A stretch of 64,000 bases of DNA from Pseudoxanthomonas sp. (lineage in GTDB: Bacteria > Pseudomonadota > Gammaproteobacteria > Xanthomonadales > Xanthomonadaceae), in assembly GCF_002863005.1 (NCBI RefSeq), contig NZ_PKDG01000008.1, forward strand, positions 124,001-188,000, written 5' to 3'. Below are positions 5,605 through 39,603 of this stretch, in pieces. The position numbers and the translations under genes are program-made. The notes beneath the pieces were generated by a model. That model was not told where the DNA came from. It worked only from the letters and a program-made list of their open reading frames with translations, and searched no databases. How positions within the stretch are numbered: the first letter of the stretch is position 1; the number at the start of each line of letters is the position of its first letter.

Positions 5605-7085
5605 CGACGGTCCTCCAGCGCCTGGCGCGCCACGGCGGTGTCGTCGAACGGATGCTTCACGCCATGGATTTCCTGGTAGGGCTCGTGGCCCTTTCCGGCC
5701 ACCAGCACGATGTCGTCGGGTCCGGCCAGCGCGACCGCGCGTGCGATCGCCTGCGCGCGGTCGCGCTGCACGAGCACCGCGCCCGGGGTCGCGAAGCCGG
5801 CCATGATGTCGGCGACGATGCGGTCGCCGTCTTCGGTACGCGGGTTGTCGTCGGTGACCAGCACCACGTCGGCCAGGCGCTCGGCGATGGCGGCCATCTG
5901 CGGGCGCTTGCCGGTGTCGCGGTCGCCCCCGCAGCCGAACACGCAGAACAACCTCCCCTGCACGTGGTCGCGCAGGCTGGCCAGCGCCTGTTCCAGCGCG
6001 TCGGGCGTGTGCGCGTAGTCGATGACGACCAGCGGGCGACGCTGGCCTGCCGCGTCGCTGTCGCCGCCGAGCCGGTTCATGCGACCGTGGATCGGCGCCA
6101 GCCGCGACAGCGTGCGTGCGATGTCGGCGGGGGTATCGCCCAGTGCGTGCAGCGCGCCGACCACGGCCAGCAGGTTGTCCACGTTGAAGCGCCCCAGCAG
6201 CCGCGACTGCACCGCCTGCACGTCGTCGCCGACCATCAGGTCGAATGCGATGCCGTTGCCATCCAGCCGCAGCGCGTCTGCCCGCACGCTCGCGTCCGCC
6301 TGGCCGCGCGAGCTGACGCCGATGCGCTGCACGCCATGCGGCAGGCGCGCGAACAGGTCGCGGCCGTAGGCGTCGTCGAGGTTGATGACGCCGGCTTTCA
6401 GGCCTTCGCGCGAGAACAGCCGTGCCTTGGCCGCCCCGTAGCGCTCCATGTCGCCGTGGTAGTCCAAGTGGTCGCGCGTCAGGTTGGTGAATACGCCGAC
6501 ATCGAAATGCACCGCGTCCACGCGCCCCTGGTCGAGCGCGTGCGAGCTGACCTCCATCGCCACCGCCTTCGCGCCGGCATCGCGGAACTGCGCGAGCAGC
6601 GCATGCATCTGCAACACCAGCGGCGTGGTGAAACCGGTGGGCACCACTTCGCCGTACATGCCGGCGCCGAGGGTGCCGACGGTCGCGCAACGCACGCCCC
6701 GCAGGTGCCAGGCCTGCGCCAGCAGCTGTACGGTAGACGTCTTTCCGTTGGTGCCGGTGACGCCGACCATCTTCATGTCGTGCGACGGCGCGGCGTGGAA
6801 ACGGTCGGCCATGGTGCCCATGCGCATGCGCAACCCGGGAACGGCGATCGCGTCGCGCGGCGCTTCCAGGCCATCGGGTACGGGCGGTTCGAACAGGATC
6901 GCGCTCGCGCCGTTGTCCTGCGCCTGCGCGGCGAAGTTCAGGCCATGCGCGCCGAAGCCGGCAATGGCGACGAACGCGTCGCCGGGCTGCACGCTGCGGC
7001 TGTCCAGGGTCAGGCCACGCACCACGATGTCGCGCGGCACATCCACGTCGGGCAGCAGTTCGGCGAGCGCCATCATCCGCCTCAT
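5601..7085 (-). CDS. murE: UDP-MurNAc-dipeptide--meso-diaminopimelate ligase MurE
   Basis: MurE adds the third stem-peptide residue. The motif DDNPRTE near the C terminus contains the DNPR signature of enzymes that use meso-diaminopimelate rather than lysine, as expected for a Gram-negative cell. The P-loop is [13 protein letters not shown]. The start [11 protein letters not shown] at 7085 forms an ATGA overlap with the ftsI stop; a second in-frame ATG is at 7076. The product is 494 residues. Confidence 0.97.
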
Positions 7086-8929
7086 CGCGTGGCCCCCGTG
7101 GCCGGCGCCGCTGCATGCGGGGTATCGAAAGCGGAGGGATCCATCGTGTCGACGGCATCGTCGGGGACCGGCGCCGGTGCCGGTGCGGGCACGCCGCCGT
7201 CCTGCTTGCCCGCGTTCTTCGCCTGCGCGGCGAGCCACGCCTCGATGTCGTCCGGCGGCACGTCCATCAGGCGCAGCGTCCCGTCCATCACGTCATGGAA
7301 GACCGGCGCGGCCACCAGGCCACCGTAGTAGCCGCCTTCCTGGGAGTCGTTGATCACCACGACGGCGGCGAAGCGCGGATTGCTGGCCGGCACCAGACCG
7401 GCGAAGAACGACGCGTAGCGCCCCTTCGCGTACCCGCCACCGGACGCGATGCGCGCGGTGCCGGTCTTTCCGGCCACGCGATAACCGAGCACGCCCGCGC
7501 GCTTGGCGCCGCCCTGCGTCACCACGGTTTCCATCATGCCGACGACCTCGTGCGCGATCGCCGGGTCCAGCACCTGCGGCGCCTCGCTGCGCTGGCCCTT
7601 CACGAACGTAGGCGTCACCAGCCTGCCGCCGTTGCCCAATGCCGAGTAGGCACGCGCGATCTGCAGGGGCGTCACCGCCAGGCCATAGCCGTAGGACATG
7701 GTCGCCTTCTGCAAGCCATTCCAGCGGTCCGGCGGCGCCAGCATGCCGGCGGACTCGCCCGGGAAACCGCTGCCCGGCTTCTGGCCATAGCCGAAGCTGT
7801 GGATGCTCTCGTAGAAGTAGGCGTTGGGCAGCTTCTCCGCGATCTTGATCGAGCCGATGTTCGAGCTCTTGGTGATCACGCCGGTGACGGTCAGCACACC
7901 GTTGTTCCGCGGCACGTCGCGGATGGTGTACCGGCTGTTCAACGCCATGTAACCGGGGTTGGTGTTGACGAGCGTCGACGGCGTGACCACCCCGGCCTTC
8001 AGCGCGGTCGATACGGTCAGCGGCTTCATCGTCGAGCCGGGCTCGATCATGTCCGTCAGCGCGCGGTTACGGCGCGCATCCGGCTTCACCCGCTCGATCG
8101 CGTTCGGGTTGTAGGTCGGCAGGTTGACCATCGCGAGCACTTCGCCGGTGGCGACGTCCATGATCACGATCGAGCCGCTGCTGGCCTGGTGCTCGAGCAG
8201 CGCATTGCGCAGTTCGCGGTGGGCCAGGTACTGGATGCGGCGGTCGATGCTGAGCGTCAGGTCCTTGCCCGGCTGCGCGGAGCGGATCAGGTCCACGTTC
8301 TCGACGATGCGGCCGCGGTTGTCGCGGATCACCTTCTGCGCACCCGGCGTACCGCTGAGCCACTCGTCGAAGGCCAGCTCCAGGCCTTCCTGCCCGCGGT
8401 CGTCGATGTTGGTGAAGCCCAGCACGTGGGCCATCGCCGGACCCTGCGGATAGAAACGGCGGAACTCGCGCTGCGAGAACACGCCGGGAATCTTGTGCGC
8501 CAGGATCTTCTGCGCCTCGTCCGGATTGATCCGGCGCTTGAGGTACAGGAACTCCTTGTCGGCCTTCTGCGACAGGCGGTTGGTCAGGTGGTCGAGCGGC
8601 ACGCCCAGCGCCTGCGCGAGTTCCGGCAGGCGGTCGGGCGCCTTCAGCAGTTCCTGCGGGTTGCCCCATACCGATTCCACCGGCGAGGACACCGCCACCG
8701 GCTCGCCGTTGCGGTCGGTGATCATGCCGCGCGAGGTCGGGATCGGAATCTCGCGCAGGAAACGCGCATCGCCCTGGCGCTGGTAGAAATCGTGGTTGAT
8801 CAGCTGCACGTACGCCGCGCGCCCGACCAGGCTGATCGAACACAGGCCCATGGCGCCGAGCACCAGTGCCAGGCGGCCGCGCAGGTTGAAGCGCGCGCGG
8901 TTGCGGTTCTTGGCCGGCGCGGCGTTCAT
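7082..8929 (-). CDS. ftsI: Septal peptidoglycan transpeptidase FtsI (PBP3)
   Basis: FtsI is the class B penicillin-binding protein of the divisome: one N-terminal membrane anchor (about residues 18-40), then a periplasmic pedestal and transpeptidase domain. All three active-site motifs are present: STMK at 299-302 with the acylated serine first, SSN at 355-357, and KTG at 488-490. The 615-residue product ends in a Pro/Ala-rich tail ([11 protein letters not shown]). It overlaps ftsL and murE by ATGA junctions. Confidence 0.97.
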
Positions 8930-9189
8930 GGACGCACCACCACGATATCCGCCGCTTCCGGCGACTTCATGCCCAGGCGCACGCGGGCGATCTGGTCGAT
9001 CCGGGTCGCTTCGGCGACCGTGGCCTGCTCAAGCTGCAGGCGACCGAATTCGACGTTCAGTTCGTCGCGTGCGCGCTCCAGCCGCGTCACTTCATCGAAC
9101 AGCACGCGGTGGCGATGGCGTGCATACACCACGCCGATCGCCGAGGCGATATTCGCCAGCACCAGCACGGCGATCAGGAAGCGGCTCAT
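8926..9189 (-). CDS. ftsL: Cell division protein FtsL
   Basis: FtsL is a small bitopic membrane protein that joins FtsB and FtsQ in the divisome. The 87-residue product has one N-terminal hydrophobic helix ([20 protein letters not shown]) followed by a heptad-like coiled-coil region rich in Leu, Glu and Arg (about residues 30-60), the usual FtsL layout. Identification leans on position between rsmH and ftsI as well as topology, because FtsL sequences diverge fast. The ATGA overlap with rsmH sets the start. Confidence 0.93.
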
Positions 9190-10154
9190 GCGGCCACCTC
9201 CAGCTTCTCGGCCACGCGCAGCACGGCGCTGCGGGCACGCGGGTTCGAGGACACTTCGTCGGGCTCGCCCTTCTGCCCGCCGCCGATGGCGCGCAGGGTC
9301 GGCGTGAAGTCCAGCGCCACCGGCAGGCGGCGGTTGGCCGGCGGCGCCTTGGCGTGCCGGTTTATGAACTGCTTGACGATGCGGTCTTCCAGCGAATGGA
9401 AGCTGATGACAGCCAGCCGGCCGCCGACTTTCAGGCGCATGAGGGCCGCATCGAGACCCGCTTCCAAATCCGCCAGCTCGCGGTTGATGTGGATGCGGAT
9501 CGCCTGGAAGCTGCGGGTGGCGGGATGGATCTTCTCCCCGCGCGGCATCACGGAGGCGATGACGCCTGCCAGGTCGGCGGTGCGCATGAAGGGCTGCGTG
9601 GCGCGACGGGCGACGATGGCGCGCGCGATGCGGCGACTCTGCTTCTCTTCGCCGTAGGTCCACAGCACGTCGGCGATGTCGCGCTCGTCGGCGCGCGCGA
9701 TCCACTCGGCCGCGCTTTCGCCCGATTCGGGATCCATGCGCATGTCGAGCGGACCGTCCTTGCCGAAGCTGAAGCCGCGCTCGGCCACGTCGAGTTGCGG
9801 CGAGGACACGCCCAGGTCCAGCAGCACGCCGGCCAGGCCGGCCGCGGTTTCATTCCATGCTGCCAGGGACGCGAAGCTGCCGCGGAAGATCGACACGCGC
9901 GCATCGCCCGCGAACATCCGTTCGGCATGGGCGATCGCTTCGGGATCCTTGTCCATCACCAGCAGCCGGCCTCCCGGGCCGAGGTGTTGCAGCACGCCGC
10001 GCGCGTGGCCTCCACGCCCGAAGGTGCCGTCCAGATATGTTCCGTCCTCCTTCACCTGCAGCCCTTCCATGACCTGCGTGTACAACACCGGCAAGTGCAG
10101 CGCGGGGAGGTGATCGGCCGGCGCGGACTGCCGCTTGCCGTCACCCTTGCTCAC
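9186..10154 (-). CDS. rsmH: 16S rRNA (cytosine(1402)-N(4))-methyltransferase RsmH
   Basis: RsmH (formerly MraW) methylates C1402 of 16S rRNA. The 322-residue protein carries the SAM-binding motif [14 protein letters not shown], the MDKDPEAIA segment, and the family stretch [18 protein letters not shown]. The C-terminal part holds [13 protein letters not shown], another RsmH signature. It begins four bases inside the 3' end of mraZ, the standard order at the head of the dcw cluster. Confidence 0.98.
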
Positions 10155-10597
10155 AAGCGCAGCTCGAGCATGTGTGCGCTCAGATCGTCGTCGGTGAGGG
10201 ACTGACGGATCTGCGCGTGGTGCGCCTGTTCGCTCCAGAGTTCGAACTTCTCGCCCATGCCGAGCAGCACGGCCTTTTTCTCGATTCCCACCGCGCTGCG
10301 ATGGCTGGCCGGGATGCTGATGCGGCCGTTGCCGTCCAGCTCGACCGGCGACGCGGCGCCGATCAGCTTCAACTGCAGGCTGCGGTGCGCCTTCTGGGTG
10401 CTGGGCAGCTTGCTGACCTCATCACGGACGCGCTGCCATACCTTCTCGGGGTACAGGTAGAGGCTGCCGCCCTCGAAGGGGTTGTAGGTGATCACCAGAC
10501 GATTGCCGCACTCGCGCGCGACGAGGTCACGGTACGCGGTGGGCACCGCGAGCCGTCCCTTGTCGTCCACTGTGATGGCGGTCTCACCCTGAAACAC
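10151..10597 (-). CDS. mraZ: Transcriptional regulator MraZ
   Basis: MraZ is a ring-forming AbrB-fold DNA-binding protein that represses the dcw promoter in bacteria where it has been studied. The 148-residue product has the two expected repeats, beginning [16 protein letters not shown] and [14 protein letters not shown]. The start is a GTG read as FQGETAITV onward; a purine-rich AGGGG stretch lies just upstream. An open frame extends further upstream through the promoter and repeat region, but homologues begin at this FQGE, so the longer version is rejected. Confidence 0.94.
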
Positions 10598-10636
10598 TGC
10601 CCCTGCCTTCCCGACACGCGAATGAGCGATCAATTG

Positions 10637-10708
10637 AACCACGAAAAACCACTGAAAACCCGGTTTTCCCTCTGTTGCCCACCTTAGCAGCGCACACAGG
10701 GTTGTCAA
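10637..10708 (-). promoter_or_regulatory. dcw promoter and MraZ-box-like repeats
   Basis: On the minus strand a TTGACA hexamer (10703-10708) is followed by a five-fold array with a 10-base period: TGGGC, AGGGA, GGGTT, TGGTT and TGGTT (10637-10681). MraZ is known to bind TGGGN direct repeats spaced by five bases in front of its own gene. Only the first unit matches that consensus fully and the others are degenerate, so autoregulation is an inference. The -10 element is weak (TAAGGT about 16 bases after TTGACA). Confidence 0.6.
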
Positions 10709-10917
10709 CAGGAAACGACCGCCTAAATCACTTGGCGGATCAATGGCTTGCAGCAAACTTCAGAGACTTGTTCAAGCCTTATCCACAAGTTGCTGTTTCG
10801 TCTCAAATTTTGAGATTGAGGGACGATTCAGTGAGGTGACCGTCGTTTCACATCCCGTCTCGTCCGCGCCGGCGCTCCCGGGTGGAACTGCGCAAACCGG
10901 AGGCCCAGAATCGGCCC

Positions 10918-11688
10918 ATGTGCCTCGTCGCCCTCGCCTGGAAGGTCCACCCGCGCTGGCGGCTGCTGCTGGCAGGCAACCGCGACGAGTTCCACGCCCG
11001 ACCCACGGCCGCGCTGGCGCACTGGGAGGCATCGCCCCACGTGATGGCAGGCCGGGACCTGCAGTCGGGCGGCACCTGGGCCGGGGCGGACGCCGGCGGG
11101 CGGGTGGCGGTGGTCACCAACGTGCGCGATCCGGCCATCCGGATTCCGGGGGCTCCGTCTAGGGGTCAGCTGGCGGCCGGTTTCCTGCAGTCGCCCGACG
11201 GTGCGACGCACCGCGCCACCGGCGTGCTGGTGGCCGCCGAAGCCTTTGCCCCGTTCAACCTGCTGCTCGCGGACGCCGCCGATTGCGACTACGTGAGCAA
11301 CTACCCCACGCCGCGCCGGATCACGCTCGCACCGGGTCTGCACGGCTTGTCCAATGGCGACCTCGACGAGGCTTGGCCAAAGACGATGGCGCTCAAGGAG
11401 CGACTCGCCGCATGGGTGTCGGCGGAGAGGGATGAAGTCGATACGCTTTGGAGCGCGCTGGCGGACGAAACCCCCGCGCCCGACGACCGCCTTCCCGAGA
11501 CCGGCGTAGGCATCGACGTCGAACGCAGGCTGTCGCCGGCCTTCATCCGTGGCGAACGCTATGGCACCCGCGCCAGTACCCTGATCGCCATCGATCATGC
11601 GGGGCATGGGTGGATCAGCGAGCGGAGGTTCGGGCCGGAGGGGGTATTCGAGGGGGAGACGACGTTGCGGATCGGGGCCGACGCCTAA
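10918..11688 (+). CDS. NRDE family protein (TANGO2-like)
   Basis: The protein begins MCLVALAWK and continues to AGNRDEFHARPT, which contains the NRDE tetrad that names the family. Related Ntn-type hydrolases use a cysteine at position 2, which is present, so this start is preferred over an in-frame GTG at 10882. The product has 256 residues. Eukaryotic TANGO2 is linked to Golgi and heme handling, but the bacterial role is not established. It stands alone, divergent from mraZ, with rnpB convergent downstream. Confidence 0.85.
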   Translation: MCLVALAWKVHPRWRLLLAGNRDEFHARPTAALAHWEASPHVMAGRDLQSGGTWAGADAGGRVAVVTNVRDPAIRIPGAPSRGQLAAGFLQSPDGATHRATGVLVAAEAFAPFNLLLADAADCDYVSNYPTPRRITLAPGLHGLSNGDLDEAWPKTMALKERLAAWVSAERDEVDTLWSALADETPAPDDRLPETGVGIDVERRLSPAFIRGERYGTRASTLIAIDHAGHGWISERRFGPEGVFEGETTLRIGADA

Positions 11689-11716
11689 CCCGGCACCGTC
11701 GCAGATGACGGTTTGC

Positions 11717-11741
11717 GGTCGCGACTCACGTCGCTCCTACA
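11717..11741 (-). repeat. REP element, single copy
   Basis: This 25-base palindromic sequence reads, on the minus strand, tgtaggagcgacgtgagtcg followed by cgacc. The arms GCGAC and GTCGC form a small hairpin next to a GTAG tetranucleotide, the layout of REPs mobilised by RAYT transposases. The same sequence occurs six more times in the window as three inverted pairs. This copy is unpaired and lies between the convergent NRDE gene and rnpB. Confidence 0.85.
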
Positions 11742-11769
11742 GAGCGCCACCGGAGCTTCGCTTCACCAG

Positions 11770-11887
11770 CCCCCTGAGTCAGGGGGCGATCCGCACCGCA
11801 GGTGCGGATGGGGGTATGGCAGCAAGGCTCGGGGCCCAACGTTTGCGAACGCAAACTTTGGGGGCTTTCCTGCGCTTGCGCAGGAAA
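11770..11887. repeat. Cluster of four hairpins
   Basis: Four inverted repeats stand in 118 bases. They are at 11770-11786 (6-bp stem), 11789-11809 (9-bp stem ATCCGCACC, loop gca), 11841-11856 (7-bp GTTTGCG stem, extendable outward with a mismatch) and 11866-11887 (10-bp TTTCCTGCGC stem, two-base loop). The last sits about eight bases beyond the predicted 3' end of rnpB. None has a long T tract. They may act in rnpB processing or as convergent terminators; that is inference. Confidence 0.6.
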
Positions 11888-11894
11888 ACCAGCG

Positions 11895-12246
11895 GCGGAG
11901 CCGGCCGATAAGCCGGGTTCTGTCGTGGACAGTCATTCCTCTAGGCGCAACGTCACCGTTACGCTCAAGCAACCTACCCGGAGACACTGCGGGCCGCAGC
12001 ATAGCCTCCCTATTTGGTCTTGCTCCCGGTGGGGTTTGCCGTGCCGGTCCGTTGCCGGACTCGCGGTGCGCTCTTACCGCACCATTTCACCCTTGCCTGA
12101 TCTCCGAAGAGCCATCGGCGGTATCTTTCTGTTGCACTTTCCGTCGGCTCGCGCCGCCCAGGCGTTACCTGGCACCGTGCCCTGTGGAGCCCGGACTTTC
12201 CTCGGCATTGTTTCCAATGACGCGACTGTCTGGCCGACTCCGCCGC
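11895..12246 (-). ncRNA. rnpB: RNase P RNA (bacterial class A)
   Basis: This is the catalytic RNA of RNase P, which matures tRNA 5' ends. On the minus strand it contains the universally conserved GAGGAAAGTCCGGGCTCC near the 5' end, AACAGAAAGATACCGCC, GGTAAGAGCGCACCG, and a 3' part with GAGGAATGACTGTCCACGAC ending ACCCGGCTTATCGGCCGGCT. The pairing of the 5' and 3' ends (P1-P4 elements) is consistent with type A. The termini are estimated from family alignment by eye and may be off by several bases. Confidence 0.95.
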
Positions 12247-12273
12247 GCGTATTGTCGCACAACGGCCATGTCG

Positions 12274-13503
12274 CTAACCCGACAGCCAGGCGGATGCGGC
12301 ACCGCCGAGACCCAGCAACAGCACCATCAACCATGGCGGCAACTTCGCCCACATCAGCATCACCACGCCCACGGCAATCCACGCCACGTCGCGCCAGTCA
12401 CGCACGGCCGTGGTCCATAGCGGGTCATAGAGTGCTGCCAGCAACAGTCCCAGCACCACCGCATTGACTCCGGCCACCGCGGCCTGCACGCCTCGCTGAC
12501 GGCGTACGCGCGACCAGAAGGGCAACACACCCACGATCAGCAGGAAGGAAGGCAGGAAAATCGCAAGCAGGCACACCATCGCGCCCAGCCAGCCACCCGG
12601 CCCGGCGGACATGGCAGTCCCCAGGAAAGCGGAGAACGCGAACAAAGGCCCAGGCAGCGCCTGGGCGAAGCCGTAACCGGCAAGGAATTCATCCGTGCCG
12701 ATCCAGCCAGGCGCCACTACTTCCGCCTGCAGCAAGGGCAGCACCACGTGGCCGCCACCGAAAACCAGCGCACCCGTGCGGTAGAACGGATCGAATACCT
12801 GCACGGCTGGCGCCATGGAATACCGCGCCACCCACGGCAGCAGCAACAGCAGGATCAAGAAGGCCACCAGCATCGCCACGCCGGTACGCGCGGACAGCAG
12901 CACCGTCATGCCACCGGCTTCGGCCGCATCGGGCGCACGTCGCAACACCAGACCCGTCATGGCACCCGCCGCGATCAACAGCCACTGCACCCATGCGTGT
13001 GGCCAACACACCACGACCAGCGTCGTTGCCACCGCCATCAGCACGCGCGGTGCATCGATGCAGAACAAACGCCCCATCGCCCATACGGCCTGCGCCACCA
13101 CGGCAACCGCGACCCACTTCAAACCGTGCAGCGATTCGGCGGGCAAGGCGCTGCCCCAATGCACGAGTCCAAGCGCGAACAGCACCATCAACACCGCGGA
13201 CGGCAAGGTGAACCCGCACCACGCCGCGACGGCGCCGCGGATGCCTGCCTGCGACAAGCCAATGGCCATGCCCACCTGGCTGCTGGCCGGACCGGGCAGG
13301 AACTGGCAGAGCGCGACCAGCTCCGCGTACGCACTGTCCGTCAGCCACTGGCGTCGCGCTACGAACTCATCGCGAAAATAGCCGAGATGGGCGATGGGGC
13401 CGCCGAATGAAACCAGCCCAAGCCGAAGGAATACGCGGAATACCCGCCAGGCCCTGGCGTGCTGTCGCGGCTCCCCCGCAGTCATCCCTCGCATGAGCAT
13501 CAT
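12274..13503 (-). CDS. chrA: Chromate transporter, ChrA (CHR) family
   Basis: The 409-residue membrane protein has two homologous halves, as in long-chain ChrA proteins. Each half has its signature: LVSFGGPIAHLGYF and CQFLPGPASSQVGMAIG in the first, and ALVFGGGHVVLPLL and FAQALPGPLFAFSAFLG in the second. The family exports chromate, though some members may carry other anions. It ends 28 bases before the 5' end of rnpB on the same strand and appears to be a single gene. An internal ATG a few codons in is a possible alternative start. Confidence 0.9.
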   Translation of the reverse strand: MMLMRGMTAGEPRQHARAWRVFRVFLRLGLVSFGGPIAHLGYFRDEFVARRQWLTDSAYAELVALCQFLPGPASSQVGMAIGLSQAGIRGAVAAWCGFTLPSAVLMVLFALGLVHWGSALPAESLHGLKWVAVAVVAQAVWAMGRLFCIDAPRVLMAVATTLVVVCWPHAWVQWLLIAAGAMTGLVLRRAPDAAEAGGMTVLLSARTGVAMLVAFLILLLLLPWVARYSMAPAVQVFDPFYRTGALVFGGGHVVLPLLQAEVVAPGWIGTDEFLAGYGFAQALPGPLFAFSAFLGTAMSAGPGGWLGAMVCLLAIFLPSFLLIVGVLPFWSRVRRQRGVQAAVAGVNAVVLGLLLAALYDPLWTTAVRDWRDVAWIAVGVVMLMWAKLPPWLMVLLLGLGGAASAWLSG

Positions 13504-13544
13504 CCCTCACCCATTTCCCGCGCCTTCCTCGACACCGGCATGAT

Positions 13545-15326
13545 TCACGCGAGCGCCGCTGCCCCATCGAGGACATCCATGGGAAGCGGCCCGGACGCCA
13601 GGATGAAGTCGTTGTAGGCGCGCGTGTCGAACCGCGTGCCCAGGCGCTGCCGGGCCTTCTCGCGCGTCGCCAGAATCTGCTGCTTGCCGACCATGAAGCT
13701 GCAGGCCTGCCCCGGGTAGACGCAATAGCGGTCGATCTCGCGCTCGGCGGCATCGCGATGTTCGCCGGCGTTGGCCACCATCCAGTCGATGGCCTGCTGG
13801 CGGGTCCAGCGCGCGTGGTGGATGCCGGTGTCGACGACGACACGGCAGGCACGGAACAACTGGCCCTGCAGGTAGCCGATTCGCCCGAACGGATCGCCTT
13901 CGAATGCACCGATCTCATCCGCCAGTTGTTCGGCATACAGGGCCCAGCCCTCGGTCCACGCCGAAAAGCGCACCGTGCGCCGGAACAGCGACAGTCCACC
14001 CGCCTCGCGCAGCACACTGTCCTGGAAATGGTGACCGGGTATGCCTTCGTGATGCAGCAGCGTCGGGATGCGCCACAGCGCGTTCTCCGCGACCGAGCGC
14101 AGGTTGAGGAAGATGGTCGAGGGCTGGGCGGGATCGCTGCTGGCGCTGTAGAACGCGCCTGGCGCGCCGTCCTGGATCGCGGGCGAGATGCGCTGCACTT
14201 CGACCGGTCGATCCGGAATCACGCGGAACCCCCGTGGCAGCAGGCCCCTGATCCGATCCAGGTGTGCGCTGGCGTAGTCGATGATCGCCCGGCGTCCCGC
14301 GTCCGTGTCCGGCTTGAGGAAGCGCGCATCGCGATCGAGGGCGGCCATGCGCTCACCCACCGATCCACCGGTCAGACCCTCGGCGCGCAGCAGCTGATCG
14401 ATCTCGGCCGACAGTTCCTCCACCCACGTCAGGCCGAGTCGATGCAGCTCGCCTGGCGCGTAGCGGGCGGTGGTGTTGGAACGCAGCGCCGAGGCGTAGT
14501 AAGCCTCGCCGTCCGGCTTGGCCCACACGCCTGCACGATCATCGGCGCGGGGCATCAAGGCTGCGAGCGCCTCGCTCTGGCGTTGCAGGGCAGGCACGAT
14601 ACGCCCGACCAGGATCGCCGAGGCGCGACGGTCCAGATCGGCGATCCCGGCGTCGCGCGCACGCGCGAGTGCCGACGTCGTCAATGGATTGCCGCTGGGC
14701 GCGGCATCGCGCAAGGTCGCGAGCTGCTTCAGGGTCTTGGCCAGAATGAAATGCGGGGGGATGACACCCAGGCCCGCGTCGTGGCGGATCTGTTCGGTTT
14801 CCTGGTCCAGGGCCACGGCGAACTGGCCCAGCCTGTCCAGATAGCGGTCGGCATCCGCCGCGTCCTTCATGGGCGAGCGTCCACCGATGCCGTCCGGCAG
14901 CCAGAAGTAGGCACCGTTCATCTGGCTGACGACATAAGGGCTGGGCCGCAGGTTGATGTCGGAAAAACCGTAGCGCCCGTACTGGTCCGCCATGGCCTCG
15001 TAGACGAAGCGGGCCGTGTCGTAGTCCAGCGCGGCGGCGGCCGAAAGTGCGGCACGGTCGATCCTGCCCAGTTCGTCCAGGCGCCGCGCCGTCGCCTGCC
15101 GATGACGCGCGCGAGCGGCCAGCGAATAGTCGGCCAGGCGGTCCGGTCCACCCTCCTCTGCCTTGAGGGCCTGGGCATGGCGTTGCAGCAGGTCCGCCAG
15201 GCGGACGTCCTCGGTGGGCGCATTCCCCGTTGTGTCGACGACAGGCTTCGAACCGGCCATGCGCGCGGCCAGGGGCCACGTCAGGCCGAGCGCCACGGCG
15301 CCGACCAGCAATTCACGACGACGCAT
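13545..15326 (-). CDS. DUF885 family protein, Tat-exported (copy 1)
   Basis: The DUF885 family is made of putative zinc metallopeptidases of unknown substrate. The motif HEGIPGHHFQ (about residues 426-435) is the expected metal-binding segment. The N terminus MRRRELLVGAVALGLTW looks like a twin-arginine signal, implying periplasmic export after folding. The ATG at 15326 is preferred because GGAGG lies eight bases upstream; a TTG at 15341 is in frame. The product is 593 residues. A second DUF885 gene follows upstream in the same orientation. Confidence 0.85.
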   Translation of the reverse strand: MRRRELLVGAVALGLTWPLAARMAGSKPVVDTTGNAPTEDVRLADLLQRHAQALKAEEGGPDRLADYSLAARARHRQATARRLDELGRIDRAALSAAAALDYDTARFVYEAMADQYGRYGFSDINLRPSPYVVSQMNGAYFWLPDGIGGRSPMKDAADADRYLDRLGQFAVALDQETEQIRHDAGLGVIPPHFILAKTLKQLATLRDAAPSGNPLTTSALARARDAGIADLDRRASAILVGRIVPALQRQSEALAALMPRADDRAGVWAKPDGEAYYASALRSNTTARYAPGELHRLGLTWVEELSAEIDQLLRAEGLTGGSVGERMAALDRDARFLKPDTDAGRRAIIDYASAHLDRIRGLLPRGFRVIPDRPVEVQRISPAIQDGAPGAFYSASSDPAQPSTIFLNLRSVAENALWRIPTLLHHEGIPGHHFQDSVLREAGGLSLFRRTVRFSAWTEGWALYAEQLADEIGAFEGDPFGRIGYLQGQLFRACRVVVDTGIHHARWTRQQAIDWMVANAGEHRDAAEREIDRYCVYPGQACSFMVGKQQILATREKARQRLGTRFDTRAYNDFILASGPLPMDVLDGAAALA

Positions 15327-32531: not shown

Positions 32532-32565
32532 GTAAAAAAGCCCGCCGATCGGCGGGCTTTTTTAC
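32532..32565 (+). terminator. Intrinsic terminator of ettA
   Basis: A perfect 15-bp inverted repeat, GTAAAAAAGCCCGCC with loop gatc, giving a GC-rich stem and a run of six T. It stands 17 bases after the ettA stop. The chromosome to its right changes to an AT-richer composition, so it also marks the left limit of the accessory insert. Confidence 0.95.
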
Positions 32566-32774
32566 TCCTAGCATGCAACAAAGGTCGACCACATCCCCGT
32601 CGCAATGTTCGCCGCAACCTACGCCAATTCAAAGCGTAGACATCTTCTCGGCAGTCTTGCCTGTCGGCAACACACGCGCGAAATCCTTTCAACCCAACCA
32701 TCGTAAGTAACAGGAGGACAAGAAATACCACCCAGTCTACAACCGCGCCCAGAGACCCAGAATTGTCATCACTC

Positions 32775-32810
32775 AGCAAGAATGCCCGCCAGTTGGCGGG
32801 CATTCTTGCT
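32775..32810. terminator. Perfect 16-bp hairpin beyond the lan locus
   Basis: The stem AGCAAGAATGCCCGCC has a four-base loop and no mismatch. It lies about 65 bases beyond the candidate precursor gene on the minus strand and could end that transcript, although no long T tract follows on either strand. Its GCCCGCC core resembles that of the ettA terminator 210 bases to the left. The remaining 32566-32876 sequence holds nothing else I can support as a gene. Confidence 0.55.
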
Positions 32811-32876
32811 CTTCTATGTCTTGCGGAGTCAGGCGCCTCAACAACACAACAAAGATCTACTCTTCCACAGCAACTC

Positions 32877-33065
32877 TTAAAGGTACGGGGTTAACTTCGT
32901 TGCCAACTTGAGTGTCAATTCGATAGTAGGAGTAGCACAAATAGGCGTGCTCGCCTGCATAGGAACATCACCCAGAACAACTGCCTGCTTTGTAATCTCC
33001 GTGAGAGCAACACTCAGTGATTCGGGTGCTACGCGCGTCGCCTCTAGAAACATTTTCTCCAGCAT
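32877..33065 (-). CDS. Candidate LanB substrate (RiPP precursor peptide)
   Basis: A 62-residue peptide gene downstream of, and on the same strand as, lanB. The ATG has AAGGAG eight bases upstream, one of the best ribosome binding sites in the insert. The first half (MLEKMFLEATRVAPESLSVA then LTEITKQAVVLGD) is acidic and helical, as leaders are. The second half, from about residue 36, is rich in Thr (ASTPICATPTIELTLKLATK then LTPYL) and has a single Cys at 43. It could be the substrate dehydrated by LanB. No homologue is recognised, so the role is inferred from context. Confidence 0.6.
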   Translation of the reverse strand: MLEKMFLEATRVAPESLSVALTEITKQAVVLGDVPMQASTPICATPTIELTLKLATKLTPYL

Positions 33066-33235
33066 GACCACCGCTCCTTGTCCAGTTGAATAGTAACAAA
33101 CACACAGACATCAACCCGTCTGCCAATCCACACTAGCAAGACAAGCACCACAAAGCAAAGTAAATGCAGATACCCCAACCAGGAAAAGGCGGCAAAAATG
33201 TTGCACGCACTACAAATGATGGACTCGAAGTGCAA
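33044..33235 (-). CDS. Doubtful small hydrophobic ORF between lanB and precursor
   Basis: An open frame of 63 codons fills the lanB-precursor gap and overlaps the precursor start by 22 bases in another frame. It encodes one hydrophobic stretch (LHLLCFVVLVLLVWI) suited to a membrane helix and five cysteines. The only usable start is TTG with no visible ribosome binding site. It could be a small membrane or immunity protein, or simply open leader sequence; the second is more likely. Confidence 0.2.
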   Translation of the reverse strand: MHFESIICSACNIFAAFSWLGYLHLLCFVVLVLLVWIGRRVDVCVFVTIQLDKERWSCWRKCF

Positions 33236-33246
33236 AATGAGCCTAG

Positions 33247-36200
33247 CTACAGTAACGGCAAACCACGCGCTAAACGAGACCTAATAGCCCTCTCAGCGTA
33301 GCGATAGAGCATCATTTCATTCTCGCGGGCATAGCTAGGAAAAAGCCTGTTGCAATCCATATGTATGAGGCTTGCAACAATGCCGGGAATTTTCTTGGAA
33401 TCACTCTTCCGCTGCAACAGCTCGAATCTCTTGGCGCAATCATCAATTACGTCTTTATCAATAATGCTGACCATGTCGATGCTTCCAGCGCTCTCAATGA
33501 AATTCTCCTGCTTGCGGTAGCCTGCGCTTACGGCGCTCTTCGATTTGACTTCAACTTGAAGGCTGCTCAGCAGAGCATCGCCTTGCGCCCTGCAGAACGA
33601 TATCGCGTCCTCTAGACGACCAAAGCACAATTTCAGCCTTAAGAAAAGAAGTCTCAACGCGAAAATCCAACGCTCATCCTCTTGCCCATCTGCAAGCGAA
33701 CCAGATTGCAAGAACAGCATGGATAGCATGCTGCTCTCGTGAAATATTGCGTGACAAGCCTCCATTCCCTGCAAGCCACCGTATCTCTCGTACTCAGGGA
33801 CATAGCATGTGACGCGCGCATCATCAATAACGCCCCGACGCACCCACAAGTTAACTAACGCTATCAACCATCCCGAGAACGCGTCCTTCACTCGGAGTCG
33901 CAAGTGACTTCTTCCCTCACGAGAATAGCGGACGAAGAACCATGTAGCACTACCGTGATCCTTGAACCGCGCCTTGACAGCCGGCATCCACTCCTCGACT
34001 AAGAAACCATCAATCTCACTAATCCCGATATCTAGCTCCATAGAAATCCAGTCGCCCAACAGCTCGGCAGTCGAGCATCCGTCCGCCGACACGGTCGCCC
34101 CCTCGATAGGCGAGCCCCCAGCAATCCATTCCCTTCCAGGATGCCGAATAGAAACCGGAATAACAACCTCATTTGCGTAATGCCGGTCACGCCCACCTTC
34201 GGAGGGAAGCCAGAGCGATTCTGTGACACGATCAGCTTTCGATTGCCACACGTAAATCCCGAATGCGAGAGCAGAGGCGCTATCGTCCAGATCGAAGTCC
34301 AGGACATTGTCCGCTTCGGCTACAGAAACGAGCCTAGGAAAGCCTCGCCTCTCCCTTAGTTCGAGAACTGCCGCATGGAGCTGACAGAAGGCCTTGTCTC
34401 CGTTAAGCATATCTCGCTCCCAAGACTCAATCCGCCAAGACCTCAGGCCAAGTATCAAAGATCCAAATCTTATTCTTGGAATGTAGCTAAGAGAATTGGC
34501 TACGGGATTACCGAAGAACTTCAGACTAAACTCACCCGCCTGACTCGATATGAGGTGAAGCATTCTATAGATTGGCGAACTGTACCCGCCGGAGTAGTGG
34601 GCAGTTGACAGCCTCGGCAAGATCGCAGCTTCCAACTTTTTGCTGAATAGCGATATTCTTCCAAATTCGCTTGATACGAGGAGATCGTCAAGCTCGAGGT
34701 GCCCTTCCGCTCTTCCGCTCGGCAGGTAGGAACCACAAACTATTTCGTGCAACCGGATAGATTCTCTCGAAGCAATGTTCAAAAGTATGGGGTCGCTACC
34801 AAACATTACTTCGGCTGTAAGCTGGCCTGCGAGCTCAGCCTCGCGGCGATCCATTGATTCACAAACCGTCTTTATGGAAACAGACCCCTCCGTGAATCGT
34901 CCAAGGATTCGCGCCGAGGAAGGACCGAACAATCCAGCGAAATGGCACCTAACATCGGGCCCGGAATCGAGTACATTGAGTATCAATGAATAGGTATCTC
35001 CGATGGCGAGCTCTGGAGTTCTCGCATTACGTCCGATGCTATGAACATCCGCTTCCGTCAGCTCAACCTCCTCGTTACCAGGAGTAGAAGAAGAGATTAT
35101 TCTGAGCAACATTTCGTCGAGACTTGTCCATGTAACCTTCTCTGACTGCTCCGCCTTTACCACACCAAGCCCCTCGATGAGTGGACTCTTACGATTACGC
35201 TTGGGACCGACCTGCACGCCTGCATCCGGATCACATACTCTCAAGATCGGAACCCAACGCCCAGCACCGAACTTCTCCTCAATGGCCAACGCAAGAGATT
35301 TTGCTTCAAGATTCTCATGCCACATTAGAGGGAGCAGCTTGCGTAGATCTTGGGTCACTTCTGCTGCCACACTTCGGCCGACCTGGAGCCCTGAACTGGC
35401 GCGAAGGAGCTCCACATACAGAAGATTTTTTTCTTTCTGAGCAAGTCCTGCATCAGAAGCCCTCTCATGAGCTACCTCATACACCCGCTCATACAGAGAA
35501 CGAAAGTTAGCTATCGAGGTTGTTCTTCTTGTGATCGACTCCAACTCCCCAACACAAGATCGCACCTCCCTTAACGAAGGAAAACGCTCGATACAACTCA
35601 AAAGACTTCTCAGCGCACCACCTGAAATGGACGGTCGAAGCTCTGTTGTTAAAATTTGATCGCGTATACAGCCTCTTGCAAACTCGTAAGCGGCATCGGA
35701 TGTGAACTCACCAGACGCCAGAAGGCTCGATACCAACTCCGAAACTGGGACGAAGTGGACCGAGATATTTGAACTCTGCAAGAGCCTCGTTGCACTTTTC
35801 GTCAAACTCCGTGTCGACAGCGCAAAGTTTTCAGTGCTTCGATCTACATACGTGTAACGGTAGACTCCTCTCAGAAGGACGATAGTTGGATTCAACCTAA
35901 CGAGGGTCATACCCAACTCGCTATCACTTGCTGCGAGAATCGTCGTCTCGCAGAACCCCGATATTTTCTCCAGCACGCGACCATCGATTCTTGTGTAGAC
36001 CGAATCATCTATTAGCGGATGCAGGTTACTGCACTCTCCGGCAACTGACGCAGTTGCTATTCCAGCCATTAGGCCGAATGGAGTAGATCGCCTAACTGCA
36101 CGCGCGAGATACTTGTATACCGAGAAAGCTAGACTGACGCGCTCCGCCAGAACGGTTGAAGGGTCTCGCAGTCTGCCCAATCGACTATTCAACCCCTCGG

Positions 36201-36426
36201 CAGCGTGAAGCATCGCTAGACTTATTCGCGGATCATCGAGAGCTGCTAGCGCTTTATCTATGAGCGCTGTCGCGGGGCATAATTCCTGAAGTTCCAGTCC
36301 CGCATGTTCAGTCGGACTTAGATCGTAAGCGAACGCCAGGGGCGTTCGCACAACTGCAGTTTTAAAATACTCAATATCCCACGACCCGAGAGCAGCTTTA
36401 CCATTGACTCTTGTCCATTCGTCCAT
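33247..36426 (-). CDS. Class I lantibiotic dehydratase (LanB)
   Basis: LanB enzymes use glutamyl-tRNA to activate Ser/Thr of a precursor peptide and then eliminate glutamate, making dehydroamino acids. The 1,059-residue protein has both domains. The N-terminal glutamylation domain has AVVRTPL near residue 27 and the hallmark RRSTPFGLMAGIA (RSTPFG from residue 113). The C-terminal elimination (SpaB_C-type) domain has WFFVRY (829-834), HLRLR (841-845), YVPEYERYGG (875-884) and SLIHMDCNRL with the conserved His near 1022. Codon use is far more AT-rich than its neighbours, indicating horizontal transfer. No lanC, transporter or protease is adjacent. Confidence 0.92.
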   Translation of the reverse strand: MDEWTRVNGKAALGSWDIEYFKTAVVRTPLAFAYDLSPTEHAGLELQELCPATALIDKALAALDDPRISLAMLHAAEGLNSRLGRLRDPSTVLAERVSLAFSVYKYLARAVRRSTPFGLMAGIATASVAGECSNLHPLIDDSVYTRIDGRVLEKISGFCETTILAASDSELGMTLVRLNPTIVLLRGVYRYTYVDRSTENFALSTRSLTKSATRLLQSSNISVHFVPVSELVSSLLASGEFTSDAAYEFARGCIRDQILTTELRPSISGGALRSLLSCIERFPSLREVRSCVGELESITRRTTSIANFRSLYERVYEVAHERASDAGLAQKEKNLLYVELLRASSGLQVGRSVAAEVTQDLRKLLPLMWHENLEAKSLALAIEEKFGAGRWVPILRVCDPDAGVQVGPKRNRKSPLIEGLGVVKAEQSEKVTWTSLDEMLLRIISSSTPGNEEVELTEADVHSIGRNARTPELAIGDTYSLILNVLDSGPDVRCHFAGLFGPSSARILGRFTEGSVSIKTVCESMDRREAELAGQLTAEVMFGSDPILLNIASRESIRLHEIVCGSYLPSGRAEGHLELDDLLVSSEFGRISLFSKKLEAAILPRLSTAHYSGGYSSPIYRMLHLISSQAGEFSLKFFGNPVANSLSYIPRIRFGSLILGLRSWRIESWERDMLNGDKAFCQLHAAVLELRERRGFPRLVSVAEADNVLDFDLDDSASALAFGIYVWQSKADRVTESLWLPSEGGRDRHYANEVVIPVSIRHPGREWIAGGSPIEGATVSADGCSTAELLGDWISMELDIGISEIDGFLVEEWMPAVKARFKDHGSATWFFVRYSREGRSHLRLRVKDAFSGWLIALVNLWVRRGVIDDARVTCYVPEYERYGGLQGMEACHAIFHESSMLSMLFLQSGSLADGQEDERWIFALRLLFLRLKLCFGRLEDAISFCRAQGDALLSSLQVEVKSKSAVSAGYRKQENFIESAGSIDMVSIIDKDVIDDCAKRFELLQRKSDSKKIPGIVASLIHMDCNRLFPSYARENEMMLYRYAERAIRSRLARGLPLL

Positions 36427-36674
36427 GCGCTCTTCTTCACCATGCTCGCTTTGTGAAATTTAGGGTTTCATCGAAACTGCTATTACAGATTACATTCTCC
36501 GCCTTCGGAAAATTACACTTCAATAGCGTACTGCGTATAGCCCGACGTGATCTCCATGACGCAGGCGGCAAGAATTTCAAGTAACAGGTATCGCTCCCGG
36601 CGGCTCCGATGGCAGTTTTTCGCGGAGCAGAGATTGCTGCGGCCGTAAGCTCCCCCGTCAAGCAGGCATTTCAA
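36427..36674. other. Upstream region of lanB, no gene seen
   Basis: About 250 bases between the start of lanB and the IS3 left end. It must hold the lanB promoter unless that is in the IS. I see no convincing -35/-10 pair. One TTG-initiated frame of 74 codons (36437-36661) has no ribosome binding site and is not called. Confidence 0.4.
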
Positions 36675-37485
36675 AAGTAGAACTTTCGGCGTGTCGGATG
36701 CGGTGCTCGGCGGGCGTCAGCCCACCAAGTGAGTCGTGGGGTCTTTCTTCGTTGTAGTCGATCATCCACCATTGCGCCGCCTCGCGGACGTCGTCCAGGC
36801 GGGCGAACAGGTGTCGGTCAAGCACCTCTTCCCGGAACGTGCGATTGAAGCGCTCGATGTACGCGTTCTGGTTCGGCTTGCCGGGCTGGATGTACTGGAT
36901 GGCCACGCCGCAGCCCTTGGTCCAAGCGGTGAATGCCTCGCCCAGAAACTCCGGGCCGTTGTCCGTGCGAACGACCTGCGGCAAGCCGTGGTCGCGCTTG
37001 AGCTGTTCGAACACGCGCACCAGACGATCGGAATTGATCGAGGTGTCGATCTCGATGTGCAGGACCTCCCGGTTGAAGTCGTCGACCACGTTGAAGGTCC
37101 GGAACCGCCGCCCGCAGGCCAGCGCGTCGCTCATGAAGTCGACCGACCAGACGCTATCGGGCAACCGGGGCACGTAAAGCGGTACCCGTTCACGCTTGGG
37201 CAGGCGCCGCTTGGCGGCCCGTCGCAGGTTGAGCTTCATCGCCTTGTATACCCGATAGATCCGCTTGGGGTTCCAGTCCGGCCGCGCCTTGCGCAGCTGG
37301 TCGCAGTACTTCCAGAAGCCGCGGCTGGGATGTTCCTCAACCCGCCCGACCAACGCCGCGATCAGCTCTGCATCACGCACCGTCCAGTCCAGCGGCGGCG
37401 TATACCAGGCCGCCCGCGACAGCCCCACGCAATGACAGGACCGGCTCAGTGGCCGCGCATGCACTTCGGTCAGGAATCGCACCAC
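36658..37485 (-). CDS. IS3-family transposase OrfB (DDE integrase)
   Basis: OrfB supplies the catalytic core for transposition. The DDE triad is visible as VDFMSD, RTDNGPEF and YIERFNRTFREEV, with the spacing of the rve integrase domain, and an HTH_21-type segment (ALVGRVEEHPSRGFWKYCDQ) precedes it. The GTG start at 37485 is nominal, because in IS3 elements OrfB is normally made by frameshifting from OrfA. The last few residues (FEMPA) are encoded outside the inverted repeat. Confidence 0.9.
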   Translation of the reverse strand: MVRFLTEVHARPLSRSCHCVGLSRAAWYTPPLDWTVRDAELIAALVGRVEEHPSRGFWKYCDQLRKARPDWNPKRIYRVYKAMKLNLRRAAKRRLPKRERVPLYVPRLPDSVWSVDFMSDALACGRRFRTFNVVDDFNREVLHIEIDTSINSDRLVRVFEQLKRDHGLPQVVRTDNGPEFLGEAFTAWTKGCGVAIQYIQPGKPNQNAYIERFNRTFREEVLDRHLFARLDDVREAAQWWMIDYNEERPHDSLGGLTPAEHRIRHAESSTFEMPA

Positions 37486-37812
37486 CTCGCGCTTCTGCGC
37501 CGGTCCTACAGTTTTTTGCGATCAGGTCCTTCATGGCCGCGTTGTCCAAGGCCAACTCGGCATACATCCGCTTGAGCTTGGCGTTCTCCGCCTCCAAGTC
37601 CTTCACCCGGCGCAGCTCGGAGGCTTCCAGACCCCCGTACTTGCTCTTCCACTGGTAGTACGTGGCCACGCTGATGCCGGCCTGGCGACACAGATCCTTC
37701 ACCGGAAGCCCGGCGTCGGCCTGCTTGAGGATCGAAACGATCTGTGTCTCGGTGAAACGGGACTTCTTCATGGAACCTCCTGGCGGGAAAACCTTGCCAG
37801 AAAGTTCTACTT
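36675..37812 (-). mobile_element. IS3-family insertion sequence (IS407-like group)
   Basis: An element of about 1.14 kb bounded by the 13-base inverted repeat AAGTAGAACTTTC (36675-36687) and its complement (37800-37812). It encodes an OrfA with a helix-turn-helix and coiled coil and an OrfB with the DDE integrase fold. GC content is high, unlike the lan DNA beside it, so it is a separate arrival. No target-site duplication is evident. The left end departs from the right end just outside the repeat, so the exact boundary is uncertain by a few bases. Confidence 0.88.
37373..37771 (-). CDS. IS3-family transposase OrfA, frame extended
   Basis: OrfA starts MKKSRFTETQIVSILKQADA and contains an HTH (VKDLCRQAGISVATYYQWKS) and a leucine-rich coiled coil (VKDLEAENAKLKRMYAEL), as in IS407-group elements. 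At the usual frameshift region the minus strand reads GCAAAAAACTGTAGG. With six A the frame runs on for 40-odd residues past where relatives of this group would stop at TAG; with seven A it would end K-K-L-stop. Either this copy has lost one A or its frameshifting differs. A good ribosome site (GGAGG) precedes the start. Confidence 0.8.
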   Translation of the reverse strand: MKKSRFTETQIVSILKQADAGLPVKDLCRQAGISVATYYQWKSKYGGLEASELRRVKDLEAENAKLKRMYAELALDNAAMKDLIAKNCRTGAEARGGAIPDRSACAATEPVLSLRGAVAGGLVYAAAGLDGA

Positions 37813-38070
37813 AGCGGGTGTCTGTCAGATGGGGAAGATTACGCTTCCAGCGGCAGGCACAACAGGGCAGAAGCTGCGAGCTGGGCGTTGAGCCAATTCT
37901 TTACTGCGAAAGAGCGCTCATCACTGCCCTGGAGCGACGCCGCCACCTTCTCTTGCCACTACTCCCCCCCGCGAGTATCCAGCCTCCATGGCCGACTCAA
38001 CGAGATCGCCGTCTAGTAACACTTGCCTACTTAGCAGAAGCACCGCAACAGTTGAGACCATTTGCAACAA
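37813..38070. other. Right flank of insert, no gene seen
   Basis: About 260 bases between the IS right end and the truncated DUF3667 gene. The sequence is less GC-rich than the core genome, and no frame has start signals or recognisable content. It probably belongs to the accessory insert, since it replaces the missing 3' part of the DUF3667 gene. Confidence 0.4.
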
Positions 38071-38322
38071 TCACGGCTTCATCTGCTTCGCACGCCGCCC
38101 TTCGAGATAGGCTCGCATCAGGTGCCCGGGCCTGAGCATCAGCTCCTTGAGCGAATACAGCATGCCGCGATCCATGTGGAGCACGCTGTGCTCCAGCTCA
38201 TGGCCGAGGAAATGCCAGTCGATGCGATGCACGGGCGTGGGTTGGCCGCAGGCGGGACAGAACTTCTGCTGGGGATCGGCGACGGCTCGGCCGCAGTTGA
38301 TGCAGATGCTCGCGTCGCCCAT
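38071..38322 (-). pseudogene. DUF3667-type zinc-ribbon membrane protein, truncated
   Basis: The 83 residues begin with a zinc ribbon (CINCGRAVADPQQKFCPACGQ) and continue with HELEHSVLHMDRGMLYSLKE and LMLRPGHLMRAYLEGRRA, the N-terminal part of DUF3667 proteins. Complete members continue for 150 residues or more through several membrane helices. Here the frame stops five residues after GRRA, where composition changes to that of the insert. The gene was most likely cut by arrival of the accessory DNA. The remaining product would be a soluble fragment of doubtful use. Confidence 0.75.
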
Positions 38323-38517: not shown

Positions 38518-39603
38518 ATGAACGCACGCGCCGCCGACCCCACCGACGACGCCGGCATCGACGACCACATCCAGTCCGTATCGGGACTGTCGGACTCGCT
38601 GCTCAAGCAACTGCGGCAATCGCTGCAGAAGATCGACGAGATCAACCGCATCACCCGCATCATCTCGATGAACGCCCGCATCGAAGCCGTGCGCATCGGC
38701 ACGGCAGGCCGCAGCTTCGGCGTGATCGCCGAAGAAATGGATACCCTCGCGCGCCGGGTCAGCGACACCGCGCAGGACATCGACCGCATGGCCGTCCGCA
38801 CCAGCCATGACCTGCGGGAGCGGCTGGACCGGCTGCAGACCGACGTGCGCCGCACGCGCCTGACCGACCTCGCCCTGGCCAACATCGACCTGATCGACCG
38901 CAACCTCTACGAACGCAGCTGCGACGTGCGCTGGTGGGCCACCGACGCGGCCGTGGTCGCGGCGGCGCAGGATCCGCAACCGGCCGCGCTCGCCCATGCC
39001 AGCCAGCGGCTGGGGCAGATCCTGGACTCGTACACGGTCTACTTCGACCTGGTGCTCGCCGACCTGCAGGGCAACATCATCGCCAACGGACGGCCGCGCC
39101 AGTACCGCTCGACAGGCCAGTCGGCCGCACAGCAGGCATGGTTCCAGTCCGCCATGGCCACGCACAGCGGAGAGCAATTCGGCTTCCAGTCCATGCATGC
39201 CAGCCCCCTGGCCGGCGGAGAGCGCGTTCTGGTGTACGCCTGCACCGTGCGCGAAGGCGGCCGCGTGGCGGGAAGACCGCTGGGCGTGCTGGGCATCGTG
39301 TTCCGCTGGGATGCGCTGGCGCAGACTATCGGGGAACGCACCCCGTTGTCGGACGCCGAATGGCGCCGCAGTCGCGTCTGCATCGTCGACGGACAAGGCC
39401 ATGTGCTGGCCGACTCCGCGCGCGGAGATGCCGCGTCGCCGCGGCTGGACTTCCCGGGGCGGGCGACCCTGTTCGCACAGGCCCGGGCTGCGACCGATCT
39501 GGTCATCGAGGGGCGCGCCTGCTGTCTGGCGCAGGCGGCCTCCCCCGGGTACGAAACCTACCGCACGGGGTGGCACTGCGTGATCCAGCAGGGCGTCGCT
39601 TGA
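38518..39603 (+). CDS. MCP-like cytoplasmic protein with C-terminal sensor domain
   Basis: Residues about 42-90 (INRITRIISMNARIEAVRIG, then GRSFGVIAEEMDTLARRVSD) match the hairpin tip of methyl-accepting chemotaxis proteins that contacts CheA and CheW. The remaining 250 residues look like a Cache/PAS-type sensor (VYFDLVLADLQGNIIANGRP, LGVLGIVFRWDALAQTI, VCIVDGQGHVLAD). The order is reversed from ordinary MCPs, and there is no signal peptide or membrane helix. AAGGA lies six bases before the ATG. The ligand and any chemotaxis role are unknown. Confidence 0.75.
   Translation: MNARAADPTDDAGIDDHIQSVSGLSDSLLKQLRQSLQKIDEINRITRIISMNARIEAVRIGTAGRSFGVIAEEMDTLARRVSDTAQDIDRMAVRTSHDLRERLDRLQTDVRRTRLTDLALANIDLIDRNLYERSCDVRWWATDAAVVAAAQDPQPAALAHASQRLGQILDSYTVYFDLVLADLQGNIIANGRPRQYRSTGQSAAQQAWFQSAMATHSGEQFGFQSMHASPLAGGERVLVYACTVREGGRVAGRPLGVLGIVFRWDALAQTIGERTPLSDAEWRRSRVCIVDGQGHVLADSARGDAASPRLDFPGRATLFAQARAATDLVIEGRACCLAQAASPGYETYRTGWHCVIQQGVA

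Follow-up and report, generated by a model that had tools for sequence, protein, structure and literature searches.

What does a complete lanthipeptide dehydratase make in a genome in which no lanthionine cyclase is detected? The question is raised by lanB, a class I dehydratase gene in a 64,000-nucleotide stretch of Pseudoxanthomonas sp. (NCBI RefSeq assembly GCF_002863005.1, contig NZ_PKDG01000008.1, positions 124,001 to 188,000; hereafter the window). The gene stands beside an open reading frame (ORF) for a Thr-rich peptide of 62 residues on a foreign island of about 4 kb (Table 1). An earlier note on this DNA had called the pair an orphan locus, and the description holds: the island carries a catalytically equipped LanB and has no match at any of the 11 congener loci fetched (out of 37), where the left flank and the resident right-side DNA are present, and LanB itself found no match in any of the 37 other congeners. 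This intact, LanB-only island is real and new in its details, and it falls within a group of isolated LanBs already in print. The activity, substrate, product and biological role of LanB we infer as follows: tentatively, and with a confidence somewhat short of even, it is a working dehydratase whose product would be a peptide dehydrated but left without rings, with the 62-residue ORF as its most likely source.

A full-length LanB with retained active-site residues

The lanB frame starts with ATG and is open across 1,059 codons (about 3.2 kb). As the earlier note had recognized, both the glutamylation and the elimination half are represented. Specifically, Lant_dehydr_N (PF04738) matches residues 65 to 718 (profile positions 2 to 645 of 649, E = 2.9e-73) and Lant_dehydr_C (PF14028) residues 793 to 1047 (profile positions 1 to 254 of 255, E = 1.1e-35), so that both Pfam domains lie in one chain, each at near-complete profile length; NCBIfam TIGR03891 matches at E = 8e-33. 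Given these E-values, the identity of lanB is beyond chance. The hallmark motifs quoted in that note, RSTPFG (residues 113 to 118), YVPEYERYGG, and HMDCNRL, are present.

LanB was compared by alignment with NisB (4wd9) and 83 other LanB-type proteins. Twelve of the 13 NisB residues examined are retained, i.e., the equivalents of Y80, R83, R87, T89, D121, R464, R784, R786, E823, R826, and H961, with R27 of LanB taken as the equivalent of R14; in LanB numbering these are R27, Y106, R109, R113, T115, D148, R510, R843, R845, E878, R881, and H1022. The sole position not retained corresponds to NisB D299 and is occupied by Glu339. R786, E823, R826, and R464 are residues that we take to be functional. 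In NisB, the exchanges Y80F and H961A abolished dehydration and mutants of R83, R87, and R14 were impaired, while T89A and R784A had only slight effects, as reported (PMC4341554).

Columns were counted as conserved when 90% or more of the 83 other LanBs agreed; LanB keeps 72 of these 98 columns (73%), the remaining 26 being changed. When the same test was applied to each of the 83, five scored 65 to 74% and the other 78 at least 84.7%. All five of the motifs YxxR, RxTPFG, GRF, RYG, and HxxxNR from Table 5 of Marsh et al. 2010 (PMC3091789) are present, and the RFL motif, found in 51% of the LanBs in that work, reads RML. Overall, 12 of 13 residues kept against 26 of 98 conserved columns changed describes a divergence that, as judged from sequence, spares the chemistry: LanB is a divergent enzyme whose predicted chemistry appears intact, with no visible decay.

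The divergence is equally apparent in the search for relatives. The nearest one in the tree set is from Geothrix and is 26% identical, and identities to the 25 other aligned LanBs range from 21 to 26%. The end branch of LanB measures 4.97, compared with a median of 0.43, and on this very long branch in a quick tree search its placement is unsure. No close relative was found in the genome contigs searched with exact peptides, in viral contigs searched likewise (the profile gave seven distant matches there), or in 99 other relatives. A plasmid search returned 40 records, the best-ranked at 26% identity, and a phage search a single match (43% coverage, 24% identity). Among 369 genomes of the class there was one relative besides LanB itself, again 26% identical, and among 398 genomes of the phylum LanB matched its own copy only. 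The relatives used below are the best 80 of 463 by score in a profile scan of genome contigs, and nearer kin may therefore exist. The family is represented by 395 genomes; seven, one being that of the window, contain a PF04738 match, six of them above the cut-off. One of these genomes has LanC and, on reading its translations, an exporter.

LanB without LanC, here and elsewhere

The genome (63 contigs, 99.97% complete) contains one LanB and no match to LANC_like (PF05147) at E ≤ 0.001. The search itself works, because it detects LanC in 8 of 18 other genomes. The earlier note had considered that the pair might depend on enzymes encoded elsewhere in the genome and had proposed a search for lanC-like genes; as far as the cyclase is concerned, this found no support. 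Its statement that the insert holds no gene for LanC, LanT, or a protease agrees with our annotation, in which none was seen and the neighboring long ORFs belong to an IS3 element. Two C39-peptidase genes occur in the genome, both on other contigs. On contig C32, a C39-peptidase ABC gene for an exporter is part of a microcin-like cluster (positions 6475 to 11518 of the locus extracted), to which, on reading the translations, a pair of double-glycine peptides and an adaptor of the HlyD type also belong; no sign links this cluster to LanB.

The earlier note had asserted a near-universal presence of LanC in class I loci, which proved too strong. Of the 80 relatives' loci, 73 have a full-length LanB frame (seven with split frames were excluded), and counting was restricted to the 57 with at least 6 kb of flank on each side. 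With labels assigned by profiles built in this analysis, LanC lies within 10 kb in 42 of these 57 loci and is absent in 15; the majority thus have it. Among 18 genomes or bins (those of the 15 LanC-less loci and three others), 10 have no LANC_like match and 8 have at least one. Five of the 10 are isolates, namely Runella sp. MFBS21, Runella zeae DSM 19591, Spirosoma oryzae, Dyadobacter sp. CY345, and Geothrix fermentans DSM 14018; the other five are bins, for which absence is weaker. On the tree, the LanC label changes at least six times over 57 rows. A LanB without a nearby LanC is thus a minority condition in this set, not a rare one. Isolated "LanB only" genes were tabulated as early as 2010 (Table 1 of Marsh et al. 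2010, PMC3091789). Because LanC served as the bait in a large survey of lanthipeptides (PMC7268733), LanB-only systems were missed by design; the impression of an ever-present LanC may owe something to such mining.

LytS-type histidine kinases and LytTR regulators stand beside many LanC-less LanBs of Bacteroidota and Holophagaceae (L031, L050, L096, L066, L029, L037, L048, L056, and others). LytTR two-component genes, likewise labeled with our own profiles and checked with Pfam on three loci (L031, L091, and L066), occur in 13 of 15 LanC-less versus 7 of 42 LanC-bearing loci (Fisher P = 2.4e-6). A link between missing LanC and LytTR is not claimed, since six independent tree pairs gave two for, two against, and two ties; a signaling branch of LanBs is conceivable. 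The Runella, Spirosoma, Dyadobacter, and Geothrix loci of this kind resemble ours in having a full-length LanB and no nearby LanC, with several of the genomes lacking any that could be found, but in the island insert no two-component gene was found. LanB also does not group with the LytS/LytTR-linked LanBs, as far as its unsure placement allows. In a Kofleriaceae locus (L059; LanB at 9863 to 13060), three precursors (8730 to 8936, 13198 to 13425, and 13433 to 13684) share an LxLxRET...GG pattern and few Cys residues; no LanC lies in the stretch examined, and the genome has two LanC-like genes elsewhere. In Runella (L066 and L029, 13.2 to 17.3 kb), LanC-less LanBs lie near a radical SAM gene (assigned by Pfam in L066) and several EEAEELAGG peptides with three Cys residues.

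In its two-domain architecture and active-site residues LanB is like NisB and other class I dehydratases (structures 4wd9, 5ehk, and 9g04). Its surroundings differ from class I systems in lacking LanC, LanT, and LanP, and its candidate precursor in having neither a double-glycine leader nor FNLD, which we take to be the class I leader motif; three common LanB motifs are also lost. Dehydroamino acids formed without a cyclase are as such not new: goadsporin- and thiopeptide-type LanB-like dehydratases produce them without LanC, with the two half-reactions on separate proteins that work together with azoline enzymes. Unlike these, the island LanB is one full-length chain, and no azoline enzyme was seen in the insert; a structure search with LanB gave a weak match to a goadsporin protein (9jhq, E = 0.0019). 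Peptide aminoacyl-tRNA ligases (PEARLs) are likewise LanB-superfamily enzymes in cyclase-free clusters, and they reportedly carry the glutamylation-like domain only (PMC11002830), whereas the island LanB has a complete elimination domain as well. Comparable as well are the "LanB only" genes of 2010, such as those of Haliangium ochraceum and Pedobacter sp. BAL39, LanB homologues recorded as having no closely associated LanA or LanC; in the portion of that paper available, they are listed without a substrate, a genome-wide LanC search, or an island structure (PMC3091789). Among titles and abstract openings of the open-access literature, no study of a naturally cyclase-free full-length LanB was found, a weak negative in that subscription papers lie mostly outside this corpus.

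The candidate substrate and competing explanations

The peptide ORF announced in the earlier note is indeed present, on the same strand as lanB and 181 nt from it. It starts with ATG 8 nt after AAGGAG, and its product, with a calculated average mass of 6688.9 Da when unmodified, contains nine Thr and three Ser residues and a single Cys. It is the longest ORF led by a Shine-Dalgarno sequence within positions 32571 to 33246, and 41 of 3,000 dinucleotide shuffles of this region yielded such an ORF of at least 62 residues. Scored against lanB codon usage, its log-odds is +5.6 in frame; the two alternative frames of its own strand give -6.2 and -2.8, and the three of the opposite strand -1.2, +1.8, and -0.7. 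Its place next to lanB on the same strand, its ribosome-binding site, and its codon use thus speak for it, while sequence families are silent; it is probably a gene, though some doubt remains. The pairing with LanB stands less firmly: as a substrate the ORF is a candidate and a fair guess, unproven, with no homologue found and none of the leader features of related precursors.

In the explanation that we tentatively prefer, LanB would use Glu-tRNA to glutamylate Ser and Thr residues of a peptide and then eliminate glutamate to give dehydroalanine (Dha) and dehydrobutyrine (Dhb). The likeliest substrate would be the 62-residue peptide, dehydrated at some of Ser39, Thr40, Thr45, Thr47, Thr51, Thr56, and Thr59. 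Because no LanC was found in the genome, the product would be linear or nearly so, with the single Cys closing at most one ring without an enzyme. NisB dehydrates its own peptide even without NisC. The chemistry of LanB is, by its retained residues, likely. A bolder version, which we consider unlikely as a whole, is that a full-length LanB and a Thr-rich peptide without a known leader form a self-contained two-gene unit for a ribosomally synthesized and posttranslationally modified peptide (RiPP), mobile as a small island and making a cyclase-free dehydropeptide with several Dhb or Dha residues and at most one ring. If true, the unit would exemplify a broader branch of LanC-independent full-length class I dehydratases in several phyla. 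Together with the genomes harboring LanC-less LanBs, the locus offers a clean test of natural cyclase-free LanB function, and the same loci bear on the purpose of dehydrated linear peptides.

A number of results weigh against a dehydratase paired with this peptide. In the searches made, no close relative was found for either lanB or the peptide ORF; for the latter, there was no homologue in the own genome, in the loci collected for comparison, or in 72,556 plasmid records, and in 296 other genomes of the family its DNA matched only about 28 bp of palindrome, in one genome. Precursors beside several related LanBs carry an LxLx(K/R/D)ET...GG leader; the peptide ORF shows neither double-glycine nor LxLxKET features, and a profile of 29 leader-type precursor ORFs (some peptides being included twice, from two starts) did not match it even at E = 1,000. 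The Ser/Thr content of its last 29 residues is not unusual, being matched by 120 of 1,030 LanB 29-mers. No promoter-like site was found ahead of either frame on the strand that encodes them, and annotation centered on the insert revealed no exporter- or protease-sized ORF besides lanB and the insertion sequence genes. In the elimination domain, the family residues G, S, K, Y, E, and D are replaced by L, G, E, D, H, and S at positions 790, 791, 797, 799, 892, and 898. The motifs FxxxYG, GxG, and PxxxRxxNV of Marsh et al. 2010 and the D843 position are not retained, LanB reading IEEKFG at the first site and GVQ at the second and keeping only N550 of the third. Note that these three motifs occur in 82, 92, and 50% of 66 LanBs (PMC3091789) and are therefore not family-defining.

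A competing explanation is that the island is a piece of what was a larger class I cluster, with lanB moved or left without precursor, cyclase, and exporter and now idle or drifting, and with the 62-residue ORF incidental. We regard this as unlikely but as the most serious competitor. LanC accompanies 42 of the 57 sufficiently flanked relatives, and the related Pseudomonadota LanBs of Rheinheimera (L044 and L046) stand with LanC and two precursors that have double-glycine leaders, and the translations, as we read them, also include a C39 exporter and an adaptor of the HlyD type; the IS3 element, moreover, lies directly at one island edge with no clear target duplication. Against an idle fragment stand the good coding signals of the peptide ORF and the state of lanB itself, which is open throughout with 12 of 13 residues kept, whereas the neighboring broken gene has decayed: the DUF3667 remnant of about 0.5 kb contains a stop and two frame-breaking indels. 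This pairing argues for selection on lanB if the decay began when the island arrived, the order of events being unproven.

It is improbable, in our estimate, that LanB instead works in trans, its target being a host protein or a peptide whose gene lies at another place in the genome. The absence of a recognizable leader from the 62-residue ORF would fit such a role, as would the separate cluster on contig C32 with its C39-peptidase ABC gene, apparent adaptor, and two double-glycine peptides, but nothing connects those peptides with LanB, and RiPP enzymes usually have their substrate gene adjacent. Least probable is that the enzyme has been repurposed to leave a stable glutamyl ester or to add amino acids in a PEARL-like manner. 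The very long branch and the six elimination-domain changes could be read in this sense; the equivalents of R784, R786, E823, R826, and H961 are nevertheless present, and LanB has the elimination domain that PEARLs reportedly do without (PMC11002830).

Island borders and neighboring DNA

The island is flanked by ettA and a broken DUF3667 gene, with the IS3 element adjoining (Table 1). Its left edge is set only by where similarity to relatives ends, while its right side interrupts the resident DUF3667 gene.

Table 1. Features of the island and its borders (window coordinates)
Feature	Positions	Strand	Basis or remark
Terminator-like hairpin after ettA, near left island border	32535..32570		Sequence
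Foreign island, ~51% GC versus 66-73% around	32571..36643		Boundaries approximate
Perfect 17-nt inverted repeat, terminator-like on + strand, downstream of peptide ORF	32775..32810		Sequence
ORF (with its stop codon) for Thr-rich 62-residue peptide, candidate substrate	32877..33065	-	ORF, Shine-Dalgarno sequence, codon use
Shine-Dalgarno sequence AAGGAG of peptide ORF	33074..33079	-	Sequence
lanB, class I lanthipeptide dehydratase of full length (1,059 residues) with glutamylation and elimination domains	33247..36426	-	ORF, profiles, NisB alignment
Complete IS3-family element (ends ± ~2 nt), adjoining lanB side	36644..37844	-	Profiles, plasmid copies
Remnant of resident DUF3667 gene: 3' part gone, one in-frame stop, two frame-breaking indels	37844..38322	-	Comparison with relatives

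The IS3 element shares 83% identity with its counterparts on five Pseudomonas plasmids and is the only high-identity copy in its own genome. A first reading held it responsible for the missing genes. The element shows no clear target duplication, but on the side toward lanB a few bases are similar to the interrupted gene (GCCGCAGCA versus GCCGCTGCG), and it may therefore simply have inserted at the island border.

The ettA side was found in every genome of the genus (38 of 38, that of the window among them). The MCP-like gene beyond the other border has a match no more than 2.3 kb from this side in 14 of the other 37 congeners; one further congener shows a short, partial match. The site between the DUF3667 and MCP-like genes varies among species: three congeners (L120, L121, and L122) have about 1.3 kb of extra DNA there that is absent from the window and that, in L120, holds a pncB-like ORF on reading the translation. 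In the window, this MCP-like gene is the ORF at 38518 to 39603, in which the MCP signaling domain precedes a dCache domain; the customary order is the opposite.

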